The notes under the pieces: generated by a model
The model's database searches: none
The model's input: only the letters and a program-made list of their open reading frames with translations
What the model was told of the DNA's origin: nothing
Position numbers and translations under genes: made by a program
Origin: Bizionia saleffrena
GTDB lineage: Bacteria; Bacteroidota; Bacteroidia; Flavobacteriales; Flavobacteriaceae
Length of the DNA stretch: 64,000 nt
Assembly (NCBI RefSeq): GCF_008086175.1
Contig: NZ_VSKM01000001.1
Coordinates: 248,001 to 312,000 of the forward strand
Direction: 5' to 3'
Shown: positions 3,771 to 14,017 of the stretch, piece by piece
Position numbering within the stretch: the first letter of the stretch is position 1
How the letters are laid out: each line of letters begins with the position of its first letter

Positions 3771-4655
3771 ATGCTAAAAAAGACGGTATTAATTGAACGA
3801 AAAAGTAAAGTCTCATGTAAAAACCTTCAACTTATAATAAAAAACGAGACTCGAGAAGGCAGTATACCCATTGAAGACATTGGGTTTATAGTTATAGATA
3901 GCCCAGAAGTTTTTATTAGTATTCCCACCTTAAATTTACTCATTGCTAATAACGCTGCCGTTATAATATGCGACGCTTCTCATTTACCAAATGGTTTATT
4001 CTTAAATTTAAATAGCCACCACAAACAACAACAGCTTTTTAGACATCAAATTATGGCTAGTCTTCCCTTAAAAAAACAACTTTGGCAGCAAACAGTGATC
4101 GAGAAAATTAAAAACCAGGGATTTCTTTTAGAACAAATAACACAACAGAATAATAAATTCGATTTTATTGCAAGTAAAGTATTAAGCGGAGACACTAGTA
4201 ATATGGAAGGCGTTGCTGCTAACTTTTATTGGAAATCGTTTTTTGAGCAAGACTTTAAACGTGAGCGTTATGGTAATTACCCCAATAATTTTCTGAATTA
4301 TGGTTACGCTATTTTAAGAGCAGCAACAGCGAGAGCTTTGTCAGGAAGTGGATTATTAAACACCTTAGGCATACATCATAAAAACAAATATAATGCCTTT
4401 GCTTTGGCAGACGATATTATGGAACCCTTTAGACCAATAGTGGATGAAGCGGTCCATTTTATAATGGAACATTATGATGAGCAAGAGCTAACTACGGATA
4501 TTAAATCGGAACTACTAAAAACACTTACGCGAACCGTATTTTTTAAAAATGAAAAAAGCACAGTAATGGTAGGCTTGCAAAAAACAGCGAGTTCGTTGCA
4601 GCAATGCTATACCGGACATAGAAAAAAAATTAAGTTTCCACAGTTATGGAATTAA
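3771..4655 (+). CDS. cas1: Type II-C CRISPR-associated integrase Cas1
   Basis: 294 residues. Metal-binding residues typical of Cas1 are visible: E146 in NMEGVAANFYW, the His of GIHHKNKYNAF (H202/H203), and the acidic pair of LADDIMEPFRP (D214/D215, E218). With Cas2 it forms the complex that inserts new spacers at the leader end of the array. It overlaps cas2 by 10 bp, so the two are translationally coupled. No cas4 or csn2 is present, which fits subtype II-C. It is unusual that cas1-cas2 lie on one side of the array and cas9 on the other side and opposite strand, so the adaptation and effector genes are separate transcripts. Confidence 0.95.
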   Translation: MLKKTVLIERKSKVSCKNLQLIIKNETREGSIPIEDIGFIVIDSPEVFISIPTLNLLIANNAAVIICDASHLPNGLFLNLNSHHKQQQLFRHQIMASLPLKKQLWQQTVIEKIKNQGFLLEQITQQNNKFDFIASKVLSGDTSNMEGVAANFYWKSFFEQDFKRERYGNYPNNFLNYGYAILRAATARALSGSGLLNTLGIHHKNKYNAFALADDIMEPFRPIVDEAVHFIMEHYDEQELTTDIKSELLKTLTRTVFFKNEKSTVMVGLQKTASSLQQCYTGHRKKIKFPQLWN

Positions 4656-4975
4656 ACGCTTATAGAATTATGTGGTTATTTGTTTTTTTTGATTTACCTA
4701 CCGAGACTATTAAAGACAGACGTAATGCGTCAGGATTTAGAAAAAACCTTTTAAAAGACGGGTTTACAATGATGCAATATTCTGTATATATGCGACATTG
4801 CGCCAGTAGTGAAAGTGCTGATGTGCATGAAAAACGAATTAAACGCTTATTACCGCCGTTAGGTAAGGTTAGTATTTTGCGTATAACAGATAAACAGTTT
4901 GGAAACATTATGAATTTTTGGGGTAAAGCTGCAGTCTCTAAAGACCCTTTACCCACGCAACTGGAGTTGTTTTAA
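4646..4975 (+). CDS. cas2: CRISPR-associated Cas2
   Basis: 109 residues, the usual length. The N-terminal ferredoxin-fold strand MWLFVFFDLPT carries the conserved Asp (D16); MQYSVYMRHC and SILRITDKQFG are further family landmarks. The start at 4646 lies inside the end of cas1 (10-bp overlap) and gives the family-typical beginning MELNAYRIMW. It is the structural partner of Cas1 in the spacer integration complex. It is followed by the leader and the CRISPR array on the same strand. Confidence 0.95.
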   Translation: MELNAYRIMWLFVFFDLPTETIKDRRNASGFRKNLLKDGFTMMQYSVYMRHCASSESADVHEKRIKRLLPPLGKVSILRITDKQFGNIMNFWGKAAVSKDPLPTQLELF

Positions 4976-5352: not shown

Positions 5353-8346
5353 AATATCGTGTTTTCTAATCTTTAATCAAACCACAACTGTCTCAATGAG
5401 CAAGATAGAACGTGTTAGAATATCGTGTTTTCTAATCTTTAATCAAACCACAACCCAGTTGACACGAGATGTTCCTTTTTTGATAATATCGTGTTTTCTA
5501 ATCTTTAATCAAACCACAACATTCACCGTATCAGAGGGGTTGGCAACAGAATATCGTGTTTTCTAATCTTTAATCAAACCACAACACAACTTATACACAA
5601 CCTTTAGTAGAAAGAAATATCGTGTTTTCTAATCTTTAATCAAACCACAACACAATTCGCTTGACCTATTTCTGCTAAATTAATATCGTGTTTTCTAATC
5701 TTTAATCAAACCACAACGGTTAGAAGGAATGAAGATAAATCTTTAGAATATCGTGTTTTCTAATCTTTAATCAAACCACAACGCTGGAGTTTGAGGTAAC
5801 AGAAAGCAATCCAATATCGTGTTTTCTAATCTTTAATCAAACCACAACACGGGCAAACGGTTATAATGCGGCATTGGGAATATCGTGTTTTCTAATCTTT
5901 AATCAAACCACAACGATGACAAGTCTCATAAATAATGGGTTTTTAATATCGTGTTTTCTAATCTTTAATCAAACCACAACAACCGATGAACAAGTAATTC
6001 CATTATATAAAATATCGTGTTTTCTAATCTTTAATCAAACCACAACAACTCTACGCTTAATCCTGTTTTAGTTTTTAATATCGTGTTTTCTAATCTTTAA
6101 TCAAACCACAACACGAGGGGAATGTTAATATAATACGTGCTTAATATCGTGTTTTCTAATCTTTAATCAAACCACAACGCATCGGCCTTTATATTAATTA
6201 CTTTCTCGAATATCGTGTTTTCTAATCTTTAATCAAACCACAACCTTTTTGTTCAAGTGACTTTTCGTCGGCTTAATATCGTGTTTTCTAATCTTTAATC
6301 AAACCACAACCACCAGTAATCTTTATAAAGGAACATCTAAAATATCGTGTTTTCTAATCTTTAATCAAACCACAACGGAAGGTACGGCGAGTGCTGTTAA
6401 AGATGTAATATCGTGTTTTCTAATCTTTAATCAAACCACAACGCACAAATATAATGCAATTAATTACATTATAATATCGTGTTTTCTAATCTTTAATCAA
6501 ACCACAACAATAGCGATGATGACGAATACAAAGATGAAAATATCGTGTTTTCTAATCTTTAATCAAACCACAACAATTAACGCGTCTTTTTCGCTTAAGT
6601 GATTAATATCGTGTTTTCTAATCTTTAATCAAACCACAACAGGTACAGGAATTAGAGGTTGTGACCTCGGAATATCGTGTTTTCTAATCTTTAATCAAAC
6701 CACAACAGAAACCGCGCGTGATATAGCAGACATAAATATCGTGTTTTCTAATCTTTAATCAAACCACAACGTTAGGCGACAACTGTATGCTCTCGAATTA
6801 ATATCGTGTTTTCTAATCTTTAATCAAACCACAACGCAGCTAAACCATTAATGATATCCCATTGAATATCGTGTTTTCTAATCTTTAATCAAACCACAAC
6901 AATGGATGGGTGCTACTAGTGCTGAATTAAATATCGTGTTTTCTAATCTTTAATCAAACCACAACTATTATTATAATCAGCCATATCACCAATTAAATAT
7001 CGTGTTTTCTAATCTTTAATCAAACCACAACGCCGTGTTGGCTTCACCAAAGACAGCTATTAATATCGTGTTTTCTAATCTTTAATCAAACCACAACGCA
7101 AGTTAACCAAAGTGTTAGTGTTCGGTGAATATCGTGTTTTCTAATCTTTAATCAAACCACAACAGTTTGGTAGTCCTTTAATCCATAAGCAAGAATATCG
7201 TGTTTTCTAATCTTTAATCAAACCACAACGTTAATTGCATCGTGAACGCCCTCGAATAAATATCGTGTTTTCTAATCTTTAATCAAACCACAACAGAACA
7301 CGGGTTCTGGAATGCTTGAGATACAATATCGTGTTTTCTAATCTTTAATCAAACCACAACCATAATATCTAACTCTTTTTCAAAGATAAAAATATCGTGT
7401 TTTCTAATCTTTAATCAAACCACAACCGCATCGCCTTGCTCTACATCTCCCATAGGAATATCGTGTTTTCTAATCTTTAATCAAACCACAACGCACGTTG
7501 GTCCTTCGGGTTTAACGAGAATAATATCGTGTTTTCTAATCTTTAATCAAACCACAACCAATCGTCGTCGTACACCGTTAACAAAGAAATATCGTGTTTT
7601 CTAATCTTTAATCAAACCACAACATTTGCTAGGCGCGTTATAAAGCAGAGTAGAATATCGTGTTTTCTAATCTTTAATCAAACCACAACAATAAAAACAT
7701 TCGATAGTAACGCTAATATAATATCGTGTTTTCTAATCTTTAATCAAACCACAACCACACAGCGAAAATCGTTAAAAGGTATTAAATATCGTGTTTTCTA
7801 ATCTTTAATCAAACCACAACAGATAAGCCGTTCTCTGCGGTTGCCTGACAATATCGTGTTTTCTAATCTTTAATCAAACCACAACAACAATCAAACTTTA
7901 TATTAAAGGCTGGAGAATATCGTGTTTTCTAATCTTTAATCAAACCACAACTGCAAGTCGTCGTTAAGGTTACGCCACTTTAATATCGTGTTTTCTAATC
8001 TTTAATCAAACCACAACCATCTTGGTAATGTTGTTAAGTACGTTCTAAATATCGTGTTTTCTAATCTTTAATCAAACCACAACCGCACCGCTAGAATTTA
8101 AATCCCCAGTGATAATATCGTGTTTTCTAATCTTTAATCAAACCACAACGGTTCTGCGTTAACTTATGGAGAGCGTTATAATATCGTGTTTTCTAATCTT
8201 TAATCAAACCACAACTAGCGGCGTTGGCGCATTTAACCAGGCGTAATATCGTGTTTTCTAATCTTTAATCAAACCACAACAATAATGCCTTCTAGCGTAT
8301 CTACTTGCGAAATATCGTGTTTTCTAATCTTTAATCAAATCGACTG
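5353..8346 (-). CRISPR. Type II-C CRISPR array, 46 repeats and 45 spacers
   Basis: The 36-bp repeat (plus strand begins AATATCGTG and ends CAAACCACAAC) occurs from 5353 at a 64-66 bp period. I counted 45 complete identical copies and one degenerate last copy at 8311, which matches for 29 bases and then diverges. Spacers are 28-30 bp. The minus strand is the crRNA strand, because the reverse complement (GTTGTGGTTTGATTAAAG...) is what pairs with the tracrRNA anti-repeat near 13160. The degenerate copy marks the trailer at the right, so the oldest spacers are near cas9 and the newest near cas2. cas9 is read in the same direction as the crRNA and lies just upstream in transcription; the 110 bp between (8347-8456) show no strong terminator. 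Spacer targets cannot be found without a search. Confidence 0.97.
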
Positions 8347-8456: not shown

Positions 8457-11400
8457 TTAAATTAAAGAACCAATTTCAGTTAATTTCACTTTAATTGGAT
8501 TCATTTCTTTCCATTTCTTTAAGCTGCCAATTCTGACTTGCTCCTTTTTATTTTCTAAAGTGGAGGCTAAATGATGTCTAAAGGAATAATCTCCTTCAGA
8601 AATTTTTTGAACTCTAAACAAATGCTTGGTTAAAAAATCATAGTTCATTTTGCTATCATTGTACTCCTCATCTGTAAGCCCTAATAAAAACATATCATTT
8701 TCCTCTAAGGTGTTTATAATTCTGCCTTTATTGTATGTATTAGGCAGTTGATATATTGGTTGTTTTTGTTTTTGTCGCTCTACTACTTTCCAAAATGAAT
8801 TAATACATTCTTTCAATTCACCGTTTTCATCTTTATAAATTAAAATATGATGATTGTTCCTTGGATTTACATACTGATTTAATTCCTTAACTTTCTGCGC
8901 ATTAGACATTTCCTCCCTTACCCTTACTTTTTTTATTGGTACGGGTTCTCCATTTTTGTTTTTTAAAGTATAAAGTTGTTGAATATCTTTTTGAAATGAT
9001 TCTATTTGATTTGCAATAATCAATTCTTCTTCATCTGTACGAGATTTCTTTTTCTGTGTGAGCAATATCGTTATTTGCTTTTGCATTTTCACTTCTTCTA
9101 CTCTTGCATTAACAATGATTTTGCGAATCTCTAAATCAACTATCTTTTTTAGCTGGTTATCTTTTAGGTCGCTTACCTTCTTCCGAATATGATAACCTTT
9201 ACTTATTTCAAACGGCGCCTGTCTTTGTCCATAAATATTTTCTTTATGTAACTGTCCTCTAACCGCATCCCCAACACTTGTATATGTTTGTCCGTTTTTA
9301 ATGATGCGCTTTCTAACTTGTGTCAACACTTTTCTATTTTGTTTATGCGAGACTAAAATTTTCTCGGCTTTATTTTTTGCTGTAGTATGAAAATCCGTCC
9401 AAGGTTCTGGAAAATTTAGTTGTTCTTTTTCATATGGCAACCCTTTATATTTTGCTTCGCGTTGAGCATTATAGTCACTTAATTGTTGAAAATAACTTTG
9501 CTTTGATAAAGCAACAACCAAGGCATCTATTGCATGATGTCTATGATCACCCCTGTTTTTTTTAGGGTCGAATTTTATTTCTCCAGTATATTTATCAACC
9601 CAAATATTACCTTCTATCAAAGTCTGATTGTCTTCTAAGATTGGCTTTGGATTTTCAATAGCATTAAACTCATTTGGTTTCTCAACAATGTCGAACACCA
9701 CCCAATATTTCCCTGCTTTTTCCTTAGATTTAAAACGGTGATCTGTATCAACTTCTGAAACAAAAACTCCCTCACTATTGAGTGTACCTTCAATTCTTAT
9801 CTGGTTTAAATCAAACGCTGGCATTTCGTTAATAGCGCGGTTAAAATTAGCGTTATCTAAATCTACATCCAATAAAAGCCAATATTTACCATCTATTTTA
9901 TTGGTTTCACACTCGTAAATAAATGATGTAAAATAATTATCTTTCACTTCACCAAACAATAAAACTTGATTTCTCAATTTTTTTGGTTGTTTCTCTATTT
10001 CTGGTAAAACAAACTTTTTGTCTTTTATGGCTAGCTTCGCCCAATAAGAACCATTATCGAAATTTTTTGCGTTAATCATTCCAACACTATTATTCTTAAA
10101 CTTTTCACGATCTATTTTACCTCTTAAAACAAGTTCTTTTTCTGTACTTTCTGGACGCTCTTTAAAGATTCGAACCATCTTTGTTGGTTGCGATAGTTTT
10201 AGTTTAAGCCAATACTTTCCATTATTAAGTGCCCTGGTATCATAGGTTAAGTTAACATAGTCATCTATTGTTTTAAAAACGTCCTTATTTATTATTCCAG
10301 TTATCGTAGTCTCTCTAGGTTTCAGTGCAGGCTTTTTATTATATAACACAATTGTTGAAACGGCCTTATTATCTTCATCCATTACAACATAATGTGGATA
10401 GACTCTATCTTCTTTTATGTTATTGTTAGTAATATCCAAATCCATTACTGGTTGAAGTATATTGTTAAGTCCCCAAAGATGTCTTAATTCGGCTGTTAAA
10501 CTTCCAGGTAAAACACGCACATCATCGCATACTTGACTCATTATTTCTTTAGTCTTTTTACTAATGTAGCGCATGTCATTTAACTGTCTTTCTATAAAGC
10601 TACTTTGAACATCTGAGTCTTCAATTTTGATTTTTGAAGTGAAGCATTTTGCTTTATAATAAGGTAATAATTTATATGCTCTTTGTTCAATATCTTCCCA
10701 GCGCTCTGCTCCTCCCCAAAGTTTAGGGTCGTTATTCTTCTGATAAAATTGATAAGGTGTTAGTTTTCCTTTAAGTGTATTAAATTTTGAATCACATAAA
10801 GTTTTATTGGCAAAACTATCGTTTAAGGAAATACTTCTAGGTATAATGTGTTCTATCTGTATCTTATTTTCCGCTCCTAGCACATCACTTATATTAATTG
10901 AAGTATTTGTGTATGGGCAAACAGTAACAACTCCCCTGTCTTGCATCTCTTTATAAAGCAAAACTTTTTGAATATTGTTTCTATTATGCTTTAAACCATA
11001 CTCTGTCAGTAATTCTCTTGCAGCATCATTTTTTACTGTATTTTCGTTAATTCTGTTTGATTGTTCTTGTCTTCCTTTTTTACTGTTTTTGATATTACGC
11101 CCTAATTCCACTTGAATTCTATCAAACTGACCATGCTCTTTAATTAGTTGGTTGACTAATCTTCTGGTTTCATTAATACCTTGTTGCACTATAGGGTTTC
11201 TTAGGTTCTCAACAGGGTCAAGTTTTTCTTTAAGCGACTTTCTTTCGATATCTTGACTATGATGATATAATTTAATAAAACGTTTGTCGTCATTAACAAA
11301 ACCGAATTTATTTTCCACCAAATAAATTTTAATTTTCTCGATGGCTTCCCCTTCTTTATTTGATTTGTCTCTTATAATCTTTATAATGTCTTTTACTAAA

Positions 11401-13046
11401 ACATCTTCAGAATCTTTAAAATAGCTAATTAGATTTCCAAAAGCATTCATTACCCCTCCTAAAATAGTAGCATCACTCATTCGATACCCTTCTCTTAAAA
11501 ATGGCAGTATGTTTTTTACAGCTTTTAATGAAACATTAGAATAGCCTTCCTTTAAATTGATTTTCTTTACTTTATCATATAGCTTTTCATCTAAACCAAA
11601 ATCTGAAATCAACTTTTTTACTAAAATATCATTATCCTTAAAATCATAAAAACAATGCCATATTTTATTCTTATGATTTTCCCAAATCTCTTTTGGGAAC
11701 AATCCAGCCAAGTGCTTTGTTGTGTAATTACCAGGAACCTTTTGATCATCGCTATAATTCCATTTTTCATAAGGCATTTTTAGTTTTTTGGGAATTTCAG
11801 AAAAATCAAAATTACTATCCTTACAATTTATTAAGTCCAACACAATTAATCTTTGGATCCCATTTAACTTCTGCTTTTTACCATATTCAATATTGTTTAT
11901 ATACTGGTAAGCCCTAAATTCTTCATAGGTGGGATGAGAAAGATGACAAGGTGATTTTCCTTTCTGTAGATATACGCCTCCTTTTTCAACAGTGGGTTCA
12001 AATCTACATTTTGACAGCAATCCCTTTTGAGATCGCAATGGTCTTTGCCAAAACAGCAGACTATCTTCACTCTTATATCTTACTTTTCCTTCTTCGTCAT
12101 ATTCAATTTCTCCGCCAAAAAATTCTTTTAAAGGTAAAATAGATTTTGTTACTATTTTAAAAGTACTTTTTTCTGATTTCCCATTTTTAATTTCCTCAAT
12201 GTTAACATTCTCTTCCCCGTATTTTTTATACAGCTTTTCTATTTTCTTTTTATTTCTATTTGAACTCAAATTACCTTTCAAAAAAGTGAGTTTATTTTTT
12301 TCTCCAACCTTTCCTAATAACCCCAATTGCTTTGCTTGAATAGTCCAAATCTTATCAAATTCTTCAACATACATATCACGTAGGGTGTATCTCGCCCTAA
12401 CACGAAGCTCATTACCATTTTCGTCAGTAATCAATTTAAACGGTTCGCCTTCTACCGGATAAATTGAATTTAAAAAACTCCCCAGAGTACTGCCTACGAT
12501 ACTTTTTTGAGTTTGGTCAATACCAACCATTCCCTCTTTACCTTTGTATATTTTCCCTTCATCATTTCCTTTTCTATTACTTAAAAACCCCCTTCTTTGA
12601 ATAATGTGATACAAAACACGCCCCATCTCAAAAAGCGTTAAGTCTTTGTGTAATGCTTTGTTTCTTAAATAATATGGATTTTGTATATGCCATTCTATAT
12701 AAGATTTTGAATTAGGAGCTATACGTCCTATCTTACCTTTTGATTTATCCCATTTCGCCCAAATATCTAATTCGGCGTGTGACAACGGACACATGTTTAA
12801 ATCAATTAGAGTTCTTAGCAATTTTATTTTTCTTAAACGTTTCCGATAGAACTGCCTTCTTTGTTGTCTACTATTTCTTCTAGCTGCATTTTTTGACTCT
12901 TCCTTTTCGCCTGTACCAATAGTTTTTGCCACAACGCCCTCAGGGAATATTCTACTTCCCATTCCTGCAATCTCATTATTCTCATCGTATACTACTGCCC
13001 AACCAATCGAGTTGGTTCCTAAATCTAATCCTAAAATCTTCGCCAT
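8457..13046 (-). CDS. cas9: Type II-C Cas9 endonuclease, large form with tandem repeat insertion
   Basis: 1529 residues, among the larger Cas9 proteins. RuvC-I is ILGLDLGTNSIGWAV (D8); the Arg-rich bridge helix is about 54-76 (AARRNSRQQRRQFYRKR); RuvC-II is IQVELGRN (E647); HNH is about 705-760 with IEHIIPRS (H733) and FANK (N747); RuvC-III is HHAIDALVVAL (H1171, D1174). All catalytic residues are present. Between HNH and RuvC-III, roughly 900-1160, are four units of about 56 residues, each with a GxI/V...F segment and a G-K/S-YW strand at 943, 999, 1053 and 1112. The C-terminal about 350 residues should hold the wedge and PAM-interacting domains. It is divergent from the tracrRNA and collinear with the crRNA strand. 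Guided by crRNA:tracrRNA it cuts foreign DNA. Confidence 0.97.
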   Translation of the reverse strand: MAKILGLDLGTNSIGWAVVYDENNEIAGMGSRIFPEGVVAKTIGTGEKEESKNAARRNSRQQRRQFYRKRLRKIKLLRTLIDLNMCPLSHAELDIWAKWDKSKGKIGRIAPNSKSYIEWHIQNPYYLRNKALHKDLTLFEMGRVLYHIIQRRGFLSNRKGNDEGKIYKGKEGMVGIDQTQKSIVGSTLGSFLNSIYPVEGEPFKLITDENGNELRVRARYTLRDMYVEEFDKIWTIQAKQLGLLGKVGEKNKLTFLKGNLSSNRNKKKIEKLYKKYGEENVNIEEIKNGKSEKSTFKIVTKSILPLKEFFGGEIEYDEEGKVRYKSEDSLLFWQRPLRSQKGLLSKCRFEPTVEKGGVYLQKGKSPCHLSHPTYEEFRAYQYINNIEYGKKQKLNGIQRLIVLDLINCKDSNFDFSEIPKKLKMPYEKWNYSDDQKVPGNYTTKHLAGLFPKEIWENHKNKIWHCFYDFKDNDILVKKLISDFGLDEKLYDKVKKINLKEGYSNVSLKAVKNILPFLREGYRMSDATILGGVMNAFGNLISYFKDSEDVLVKDIIKIIRDKSNKEGEAIEKIKIYLVENKFGFVNDDKRFIKLYHHSQDIERKSLKEKLDPVENLRNPIVQQGINETRRLVNQLIKEHGQFDRIQVELGRNIKNSKKGRQEQSNRINENTVKNDAARELLTEYGLKHNRNNIQKVLLYKEMQDRGVVTVCPYTNTSINISDVLGAENKIQIEHIIPRSISLNDSFANKTLCDSKFNTLKGKLTPYQFYQKNNDPKLWGGAERWEDIEQRAYKLLPYYKAKCFTSKIKIEDSDVQSSFIERQLNDMRYISKKTKEIMSQVCDDVRVLPGSLTAELRHLWGLNNILQPVMDLDITNNNIKEDRVYPHYVVMDEDNKAVSTIVLYNKKPALKPRETTITGIINKDVFKTIDDYVNLTYDTRALNNGKYWLKLKLSQPTKMVRIFKERPESTEKELVLRGKIDREKFKNNSVGMINAKNFDNGSYWAKLAIKDKKFVLPEIEKQPKKLRNQVLLFGEVKDNYFTSFIYECETNKIDGKYWLLLDVDLDNANFNRAINEMPAFDLNQIRIEGTLNSEGVFVSEVDTDHRFKSKEKAGKYWVVFDIVEKPNEFNAIENPKPILEDNQTLIEGNIWVDKYTGEIKFDPKKNRGDHRHHAIDALVVALSKQSYFQQLSDYNAQREAKYKGLPYEKEQLNFPEPWTDFHTTAKNKAEKILVSHKQNRKVLTQVRKRIIKNGQTYTSVGDAVRGQLHKENIYGQRQAPFEISKGYHIRKKVSDLKDNQLKKIVDLEIRKIIVNARVEEVKMQKQITILLTQKKKSRTDEEELIIANQIESFQKDIQQLYTLKNKNGEPVPIKKVRVREEMSNAQKVKELNQYVNPRNNHHILIYKDENGELKECINSFWKVVERQKQKQPIYQLPNTYNKGRIINTLEENDMFLLGLTDEEYNDSKMNYDFLTKHLFRVQKISEGDYSFRHHLASTLENKKEQVRIGSLKKWKEMNPIKVKLTEIGSLI

Positions 13047-13149: not shown

Positions 13150-13241
13150 CTGATTAAAATTTCTAATCTTTAATCTTATCACAATAAGGCTATATGCCGT
13201 AGATGAAAATCTTTAGTCCTGCTTCGGTAGGACTTTTTTTT
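13150..13241 (+). ncRNA. tracrRNA for Cas9
   Basis: The anti-repeat TTTCTAATCTTTAATC (13160-13175) is identical to 16 bases of the plus-strand repeat, so it pairs with the crRNA repeat; after a short mismatch TCACAA pairs again. Downstream are a small stem (GGC TATAT GCC, about 13188-13200) and a final hairpin AGTCCTGC TTCG GTAGGACT followed by eight or nine T (13215-13241), a strong Rho-independent terminator. The expected RNA is about 85-90 nt. It is read divergently from cas9. Confidence 0.85.
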
Positions 13242-13339: not shown

Positions 13340-14017
13340 CTAAAACAGTGTATACAGCGTAGTAACGATACTTCCTTTACCTTCTTTTAAAGTGATAGAT
13401 AACAATTGTTTTTCGGCTGTTATCTTTAAATTAAAGGGTGGAGCTAATACATTTAAACCACTATGTTTTTTCAGTCTAGTCCCTTGTCCCGAAATAATGT
13501 CTGTATTACATATAAAATCGCCATCGGGGAGATGTTCTGTTATAATAACATATTTAAAGCCGCTTAACTTACACAGTATATTTTGCACCTCTGCATTCGA
13601 TAAATGCTGGAGCACTTGTCGCAATAAAGCACAATCTCCCAAAGGCAATTCGTCTACGGCAATATCCAAACAGTAAAATTCTAAATTTTCTGCTTTAAAC
13701 TGTTTTTTATTATGCTCTATTAGGTCTGTTACAATATCTACCGCAGTATAGTTCTTGGTATACTTTACCAATTTTTTTCCCACATTAAAATCCCCGCAAC
13801 CCAAATCGCACACTACTATCGGACTTTCAAAAGCTGTTAAAAATGAGGTTACCGCATCTATATATGGATTTACTATTTCTGGCGCATGCGATCCTGCACC
13901 AGAATAGAAACTAGCACTATTACCACCCCAAAGTTTCATTTCGTAAACCTGCGCCATTGCCATTTTGGTTGGCCAGGCCGTCTTTATTTTTTTAGTCTCA
14001 CTCTCTTTCTTTTTCAT
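13340..14017 (-). CDS. Class I SAM-dependent methyltransferase
   Basis: 225 residues. Motif I of the Rossmann methyltransferase fold is clear at about 68-80 (VVCDLGCGDFNVG), followed by the acidic end of strand 2 (YTAVDIVTDLI) and a plausible motif IV region (DCALLRQVLQHLSN). The substrate cannot be deduced; the lack of a target-recognition domain or NPPY motif argues against a DNA methylase. It may act on a small molecule. It lies next to the tracrRNA on the opposite strand with no operon partner. Confidence 0.7.
   Translation of the reverse strand: MKKKESETKKIKTAWPTKMAMAQVYEMKLWGGNSASFYSGAGSHAPEIVNPYIDAVTSFLTAFESPIVVCDLGCGDFNVGKKLVKYTKNYTAVDIVTDLIEHNKKQFKAENLEFYCLDIAVDELPLGDCALLRQVLQHLSNAEVQNILCKLSGFKYVIITEHLPDGDFICNTDIISGQGTRLKKHSGLNVLAPPFNLKITAEKQLLSITLKEGKGSIVTTLYTLF

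Follow-up and report, generated by a model that had tools for sequence, protein, structure and literature searches.

A four-unit β-repeat arm within the RuvC domain of a type II-C Cas9 from Bizionia saleffrena

What does a Cas9 do with some 280 additional residues placed inside its RuvC nuclease domain? The question is raised by a CRISPR locus of Bizionia saleffrena that lies in the stretch of DNA analysed here (64,000 nucleotides, hereafter the window). Its cas9 gene (8457..13046, minus strand) encodes 1529 amino acids; the product matches TIGR01865 with 482.6 bits (cutoff 100) and carries Pfam RuvC_III and HNH_4 matches, the former split into two stretches. The neighbouring genes are cas1 (3771..4655, plus strand; PF01867, E 2.1e-25) and cas2 (4646..4975, plus strand; PF09827, E 4.6e-19), followed by a CRISPR array at 5353..8346, with no strand assigned, that contains 46 copies of a 36-nucleotide repeat (GTTGTGGTTTGATTAAAGATTAGAAAACACGATATT in the minus-strand reading). 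A putative tracrRNA, predicted at about 13161..13241 on the plus strand with approximate ends and divergent from cas9, combines an anti-repeat, hairpins and a T-run terminator and matches no Rfam family at E 0.1. Beyond it, upstream of cas9, a gene at 13340-14017 encodes a methyltransferase domain. Between cas1 and cas9 the window's ORF list contains, cas2 aside, no sense ORF of at least 80 amino acids; the locus is compact and by its gene content appears to be of type II-C make-up. The catalytic residues D8, E647, H733 and D1174 (the last, in RuvC-III, encoded at 9525..9527 on the minus strand) are all retained, as a first-pass annotation of the DNA had stated. The protein has the make-up of a type II-C Cas9 to which an uncharacterized repeat arm has been added; a literature search, with most subscription papers outside its coverage, found no description of a four-unit Cas9 array. 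In the following, array-bearing and array-less refer to this protein array and not to the CRISPR repeats.

The insert, flanked within RuvC by the WGL helix and RuvC-III, consists of four tandem β units of about 56 residues, delimited by motif, profile comparison and model. Unit 1 (residues 908-965; 10152..10325), unit 2 (966-1019; 9990..10151), unit 3 (1020-1078; 9813..9989) and unit 4 (1079-1137; 9636..9812), all on the minus strand, contain a GKYW motif at residues 943, 1053 and 1112 or, in unit 2, GSYW at 999, the very positions proposed in the first-pass annotation. The internal self-similarity that this proposal entailed is strong. The best internal Smith–Waterman alignment of residues 900-1160 scores 137, a value reached by none of 60 shuffled sequences (mean 31.6, s.d. 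4.8, maximum 45). Comparison of unit profiles, each a ten-sequence alignment obtained by cutting ten aligned inserts into units, matched all six pairs with E values, per single comparison, of 3.5e-12 to 1.6e-5 and probabilities of 79-97.6%, units 3 and 4 and units 1 and 2 giving the strongest matches. None of the DNA repeat families listed for the window has two copies within the array, so the duplication of the units is old.

The β region extends beyond the four units: in the model it begins at about residue 883 (window position 10400), with a pair of predicted strands ahead of unit 1 and another behind unit 4. These flanking pairs look like half-units, which would give a layout of half, four, half over residues 883-1160. 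The proposed C-terminal half-unit U0c (residues 883-907; 10326..10400, minus strand) has its boundaries and homology assigned by eye and is absent from the match list of the unit HMM; the proposed N-terminal half-unit leading into RuvC-III, U5n (1138-1160; 9567..9635, minus strand), is matched at E 0.56 and has nine positions that are invariant across 12 array-bearing Cas9s. An array of about 900-1160 ending in a fifth half-unit had been suggested before; its start is here moved to about 883, and the terminal half-unit is retained by eye and on its strand pattern, its sequence support being weak. Across the same 12 sequences unit 3 is the most conserved (0.73, compared with 0.64-0.67 for the rest), and its invariant positions include F1031, S1041, Y1044 and D1052. 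Taken over the 12 arrays, net charge ranges from −13 to +8 with a median of −8, and only one array is positive; unit 4 is net negative in every one, and only units 1 and 2 are mildly basic, in most of the sequences.

Modelled alone, the array is all-β with a similar strand order occurring four times (pLDDT 89.0, pTM 0.73). Together with its status as an insertion relative to array-less Cas9s, this upholds the earlier description of a repeated β module between HNH and RuvC-III. A model of residues 601-1529 (929 residues) has a pTM of 0.37 and does not fix the position of the arm. A Foldseek search with the array model returned no match at E ≤ 0.001 in the PDB or BFVD, the best probability being 0.72 at E 0.67. 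The top VIA rows have Z scores of 4.3-5.0 and sequence identities to the array of 6-7%, and include CysA (Z 5.0, 88 residues, r.m.s.d. 3.9) and ModG (Z 4.4, 101 residues, r.m.s.d. 4.4); we take these CysA-type ABC-ATPase and ModG domains to be tandem OB folds of the MOP/TOBE type. The rows at Z 3-4 are presumably smaller OB-type domains of nucleic-acid proteins, and some of the higher rows are bound to single-stranded DNA or RNA according to their entry titles. Unrelated folds such as viral spikes appear at Z 2. We regard 'OB-like' as a lead from modelling, since Z scores in this range may reflect a common arrangement alone. A β-propeller with a split closing blade was considered on account of the end halves; none stood out among the Foldseek and VIA matches listed, and a Kelch entry gave a TM score of 0.09.

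ThermoCas9 (PDB code 9ar4) can be aligned as far as query residue 862 and then again from 1163, its own residue being 711 at either point; for GeoCas9 (PDB code 8jtj) the alignment breaks off at query residue 862 (its residue 711) and continues at 1160 (its residue 708). Taken alone, the second pieces are weak (i-E 0.89 and 0.11, respectively). The distance from the first residue of LRxxWGL to the HHA motif is 21 residues in the array-less Cas9s of loci L005-L008, 76 in that of L004 and 311-317 in the array-bearing proteins. Among 33 distinct Cas9 segments the long form is confined to the array clade and L004 is intermediate (112 residues from the RQLND motif, compared with 57-58), with a fixed 90-residue stretch taken in the 14 segments in which this motif was not found.

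On its far side the array runs into the junction PKKNRGD (residues 1161-1167; 9546..9566, minus strand), which by spacing and only approximately maps to the loop of SpCas9 that holds K974 and R976. As PKKNRxD it is the best-conserved stretch, with a mean major-residue frequency of 0.92 in 12 sequences. K1162 and N1164/R1165 precede D1174 by 12 and 10/9 residues, respectively, and K974 and R976 are equally spaced before D986 of SpCas9 if no gap is assumed. When the 601-1529 model is aligned by VIA with chains of SpCas9 type, the alignments stop at about residue 848, equivalent to 960 in those chains, which fits a position of the array next to this loop. In one reported model, K974 and R976 bond to the non-target strand, and the effect of K974A and R976A is reported to be limited to cutting of that strand (PMC5680257). 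To the approximation that such mapping permits, the array would directly precede the loop of RuvC by which SpCas9 holds the non-target strand. Multiple alignment reveals another insertion specific to the clade, at residues 240-301 in the REC part (12144..12329, minus strand): 60-62 of its 62 columns are filled in all nine aligned array-bearing Cas9s, compared with six of 62 in all seven others. It could be a contact surface.

Twelve distinct array-bearing Cas9s were collected, that of the window included, after removal of the copies L032 (of L002), L036 (of L003) and L062 (of L033). Every one of them has four units, with no sign of the variation between species that had been raised as a possibility, and 45 of their 48 unit motifs read GxYW, the other three GxYY. 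A whole-Cas9 search at order level matched 83 of 395 genomes and, among the matches listed, three (the window's own included) cover the whole protein without a break. The insert alone, used as query, gave hits in three of 395 genomes of the phylum (one of them, in G163, weak at E 3.3e-4, interrupted by an internal stop and not counted), two of 349 of the family and four of 329 of the genus of G261, these samples overlapping one another. A scan of genome contigs yielded nine loci from 32 pattern-matched stretches; it used six patterns, one of them an array peptide, and finds only close relatives, so that it is biased towards array carriers and could have missed other unit numbers. The named sources are Gelidibacter, Flavobacterium and metagenome-assembled genomes labelled Flavobacteriaceae, Flavobacteriales, Bacteroidetes and, in two cases, Bacteroidales.

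None of 47 pattern matches in viral contigs was confirmed as containing array units, and in 48 plasmid records the Cas9 query was covered to at most 35% among the 15 matches listed. The array sequence finds nothing in the PDB at E 1, its best Pfam match (E 0.004) falls below the cutoff and the unit HMM reaches E 0.18 at best on the other ORFs scanned. The interval from cas9 to the CRISPR array in array-bearing L035 (11924-13249) contains three toxin genes, one ParE-like and two YoeB-like; for Flavobacterium columnare, PMC8092290 reports a ParDE pair, likewise predicted, at the corresponding position. In L039 a small GIY-YIG ORF (8538-8798) follows cas9 and precedes cas1- and cas2-sized ORFs.

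In a tree of 40 units from ten Cas9s, built on few columns and accompanied by a program warning on long branches, the units form one group per position, arranged as ((U1,U2),(U3,U4)) with support of 95/92. Because the units group by position, the array is old and fixed. A tree of 26 Cas9s, built after removal of the array, puts the 12 array-bearing proteins on one side of a single branch (support 100/100) and groups eight array-less ones together; L004 has no firm place in it (61/39). This fits a single origin of the array followed by freezing of its number at four; a possible alternative history is that the sister Cas9s lost it. Four units are found down to 49% identity, and each of them has invariant residues. 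The array evolves with ω of about 0.13 (NG86) in the pairs L003/L033, L002/L035 and L035/L037, where other parts of Cas9 give 0.03-0.21; dS is about 0.8-1.0 for the L002/L035 and L035/L037 arrays and is saturated for the window and L031, so that no ω is given there. Between the window and L031 identity is 67% in the array, 74% in PI, 79% in REC and 84-87% in the catalytic parts.

The Cas9 of L004, otherwise array-less, has a 69-residue spacer (residues 771-839) between WGL and HHALDA. When this was aligned with unbroken stretches of the array, none of 300 shuffles scored as high for U3, U2c+U3n or U3c+U4n, two did for U1 and for U1c+U2n, 11 for U4c+U5n and 37 for U0c+U1n; with 200 shuffles the counts were 16 for U2 and 21 for U4. 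Some of the example alignments cover the spacer only in part, and L004 is not among the matches of the unit HMM. That the spacer represents a one-module form of the array is, on these alignments, suggestive only. Homology of the spacer to the spliced half-units U0c+U5n is not supported (score 10.7 compared with 11.4 for shuffled sequences, 178 of 300 as high).

The guide RNA parts were compared between array-bearing and array-less loci, the tracrRNA in an alignment of 16 loci that omits L038, where the terminator pattern is missing. The tracrRNA cores of array-less loci agree with that of the window at 71 of 72 positions (L007, L008), 69/72 (L044), 68/72 (L005, L006), 60/76 (L045), 59/76 (L043) and 54/75 (L004); those of array-bearing loci range from 72/72 (L031) down to 53/75 (L039). 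Among the CRISPR repeats, all 36 positions of the window's repeat are matched in array-less L063 and L064 and 35 of them in L065, L066 and L068, and identical variants occur across the divide, array-bearing L035 sharing its repeat with array-less L066 and L031 with L068. The repeats of array-less L067 and L069 (the L004 locus) are distant (23/36 and 22/36), no CRISPR array was found in L070 (best site 25/36), and L038 and L039, the array carriers from Bacteroidales, have repeats unlike that of the window. Judged from these sequences, the guide parts track bacterial lineage or locus and not the arm. The 36-nucleotide repeat that PMC5395568 gives for F. columnare ATCC 49512 is identical to that of the window; the form of its Cas9 cannot be told from this, because array-less Cas9s carry that repeat too. 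L035 and L066, one array-bearing and the other array-less, share not only a repeat variant but also near-identical sequence around the tracrRNA, which looks like an exchange of cas9 in place. Such in situ exchange is described for Flavobacteriales (PMC12669027) and for F. psychrophilum (PMC10309648).

These comparisons bear directly on the function of the arm, for which the guide RNA was one candidate partner named in the first-pass annotation. Insertions that contact guide RNA do exist in Cas9 proteins, and the guide varies within the array clade, the repeats and tracrRNA of L038 and L039 being unlike those of the window. Binding of the guide scaffold by the arm is nevertheless very improbable, since array-less sisters have near-identical tracrRNA cores and repeats (cores at 68-71 of 72 positions, as high as 71/72 in L007 and L008, and two repeats, those of L063 and L064, at 36/36); an adaptation of the arm to a different scaffold is for its part unlikely. 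Even less credit is due to the array as a neutral, functionless remnant. The existence of array-less sisters and its place among the faster-evolving parts of the protein would suit such a remnant, but not the ω of 0.13 in three pairs, the invariant residues in each unit or a unit number that stays constant as identity falls to 49%. We tentatively favour, with somewhat less than even confidence, an accessory arm whose action follows guide loading and is most likely directed at target DNA near the exit of the non-target strand from RuvC. It would be an ordered arm of four homologous β units, probably with a half-unit closing it at either side of its base, and would have arisen by duplication in a single lineage of II-C Cas9s, inside RuvC and just before the non-target-strand loop. 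Working once the guide is loaded, it may contact the displaced strand or the flanking duplex at this exit and so tune R-loop stability or non-target-strand cutting; both the contact and its effect are what we infer here. The function is placed downstream of guide binding because array-less Cas9s share nearly the same tracrRNA and in part the same repeats. Of the guide/target contacts envisaged earlier, that with target DNA is the one favoured, because the arm adjoins the RuvC non-target-strand loop. The site of insertion speaks for it, as do the fixed number and positional grouping of the units, the ω of 0.13 in three pairs, the conserved junction and the OB-type domains among the higher VIA rows. 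Against it stand the net charge, whose median of −8 argues against a simple DNA clamp, the weakness of the fold matches and the persistence of array-less Cas9s, which makes the arm dispensable for basic function.

The main rival is a surface for protein docking (another Cas9 copy, Cas1–Cas2 or a host protein) or a shield against anti-CRISPRs over HNH and RuvC, which we hold to be possible though on balance unlikely. A neutral to acidic array would suit protein contacts, as would its faster divergence relative to the catalytic parts (67% compared with 84-87%, window and L031) and the precedent of CbCas9, a large relative with solved complexes with its partner PcrIIC1. No accessory gene common to the few loci examined (the window, L035, L039 and L061) is evident, L061 containing one ORF without a Pfam match, and a constant unit number with an ω of 0.13 gives no sign of an arms race. 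More doubtful is a variant of DNA contact in which a string of OB-like units in RuvC captures the displaced non-target strand, having grown from a one-module insert like that of L004. The arm might instead bind nothing else and act as a mechanical brake or spacer that limits movement of HNH or REC, perhaps through REC 240-301. It departs from RuvC soon after the HNH region, and both insertions occur together in all nine aligned array-bearing Cas9s and are both missing from the seven others, the partial spacer of L004 excepted; as both belong to one clade, however, their co-occurrence may be a single event, and we consider such a role improbable.

Whichever of these applies, it is RuvC that gained a 280-residue repeat arm, at the mouth for the non-target strand, and not the recognition or PAM-reading parts of the enzyme. 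Nature offers array-bearing and array-less Cas9s with nearly the same guide parts, so that one guide may serve both, and a shared guide could allow a clean measurement of what the arm does to cutting, fidelity or inhibitor resistance. Domains next to RuvC are, moreover, naturally tolerated at the base of the arm.

Among known systems, Nme1Cas9, GeoCas9 and ThermoCas9 have the same order of RuvC-II, HNH and RuvC-III as the window Cas9. Nme1Cas9 (PDB code 6jdv) matches the 601-1529 model with a Z score of 14.8 over 426 residues (r.m.s.d. 14.6), and the alignments with GeoCas9 and ThermoCas9 show no insertion, the residues that flank the array lying next to each other. The best VIA rows for the array itself, the ABC-ATPase (CysA) and ModG domains, have weak scores and no sequence match. 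The array-less sister II-C Cas9s (L005-L008 and L043-L045; 1122-1154 amino acids) are far shorter than the 1529 residues of the window protein, and the REC insertion 240-301 is missing in the six that were aligned; those of L005-L008 are 57-58% identical to it over approximately residues 1-240 and 39-41% over approximately 324-865. The nearest solved sequence is CbCas9 (PDB sequence search, E 1.3e-48; 1442 amino acids; PDB codes 8iyq, 8wmh, 8wmm, 8wmn and 8wr4), a large Cas9 like that of the window, for which entry titles record complexes with the partner PcrIIC1. At the site of the array, however, CbCas9 has 41 residues (chain 983 to 1025) where the window Cas9 runs from 865 to 1162; it has no array, and its domain layout at this site is a different one.
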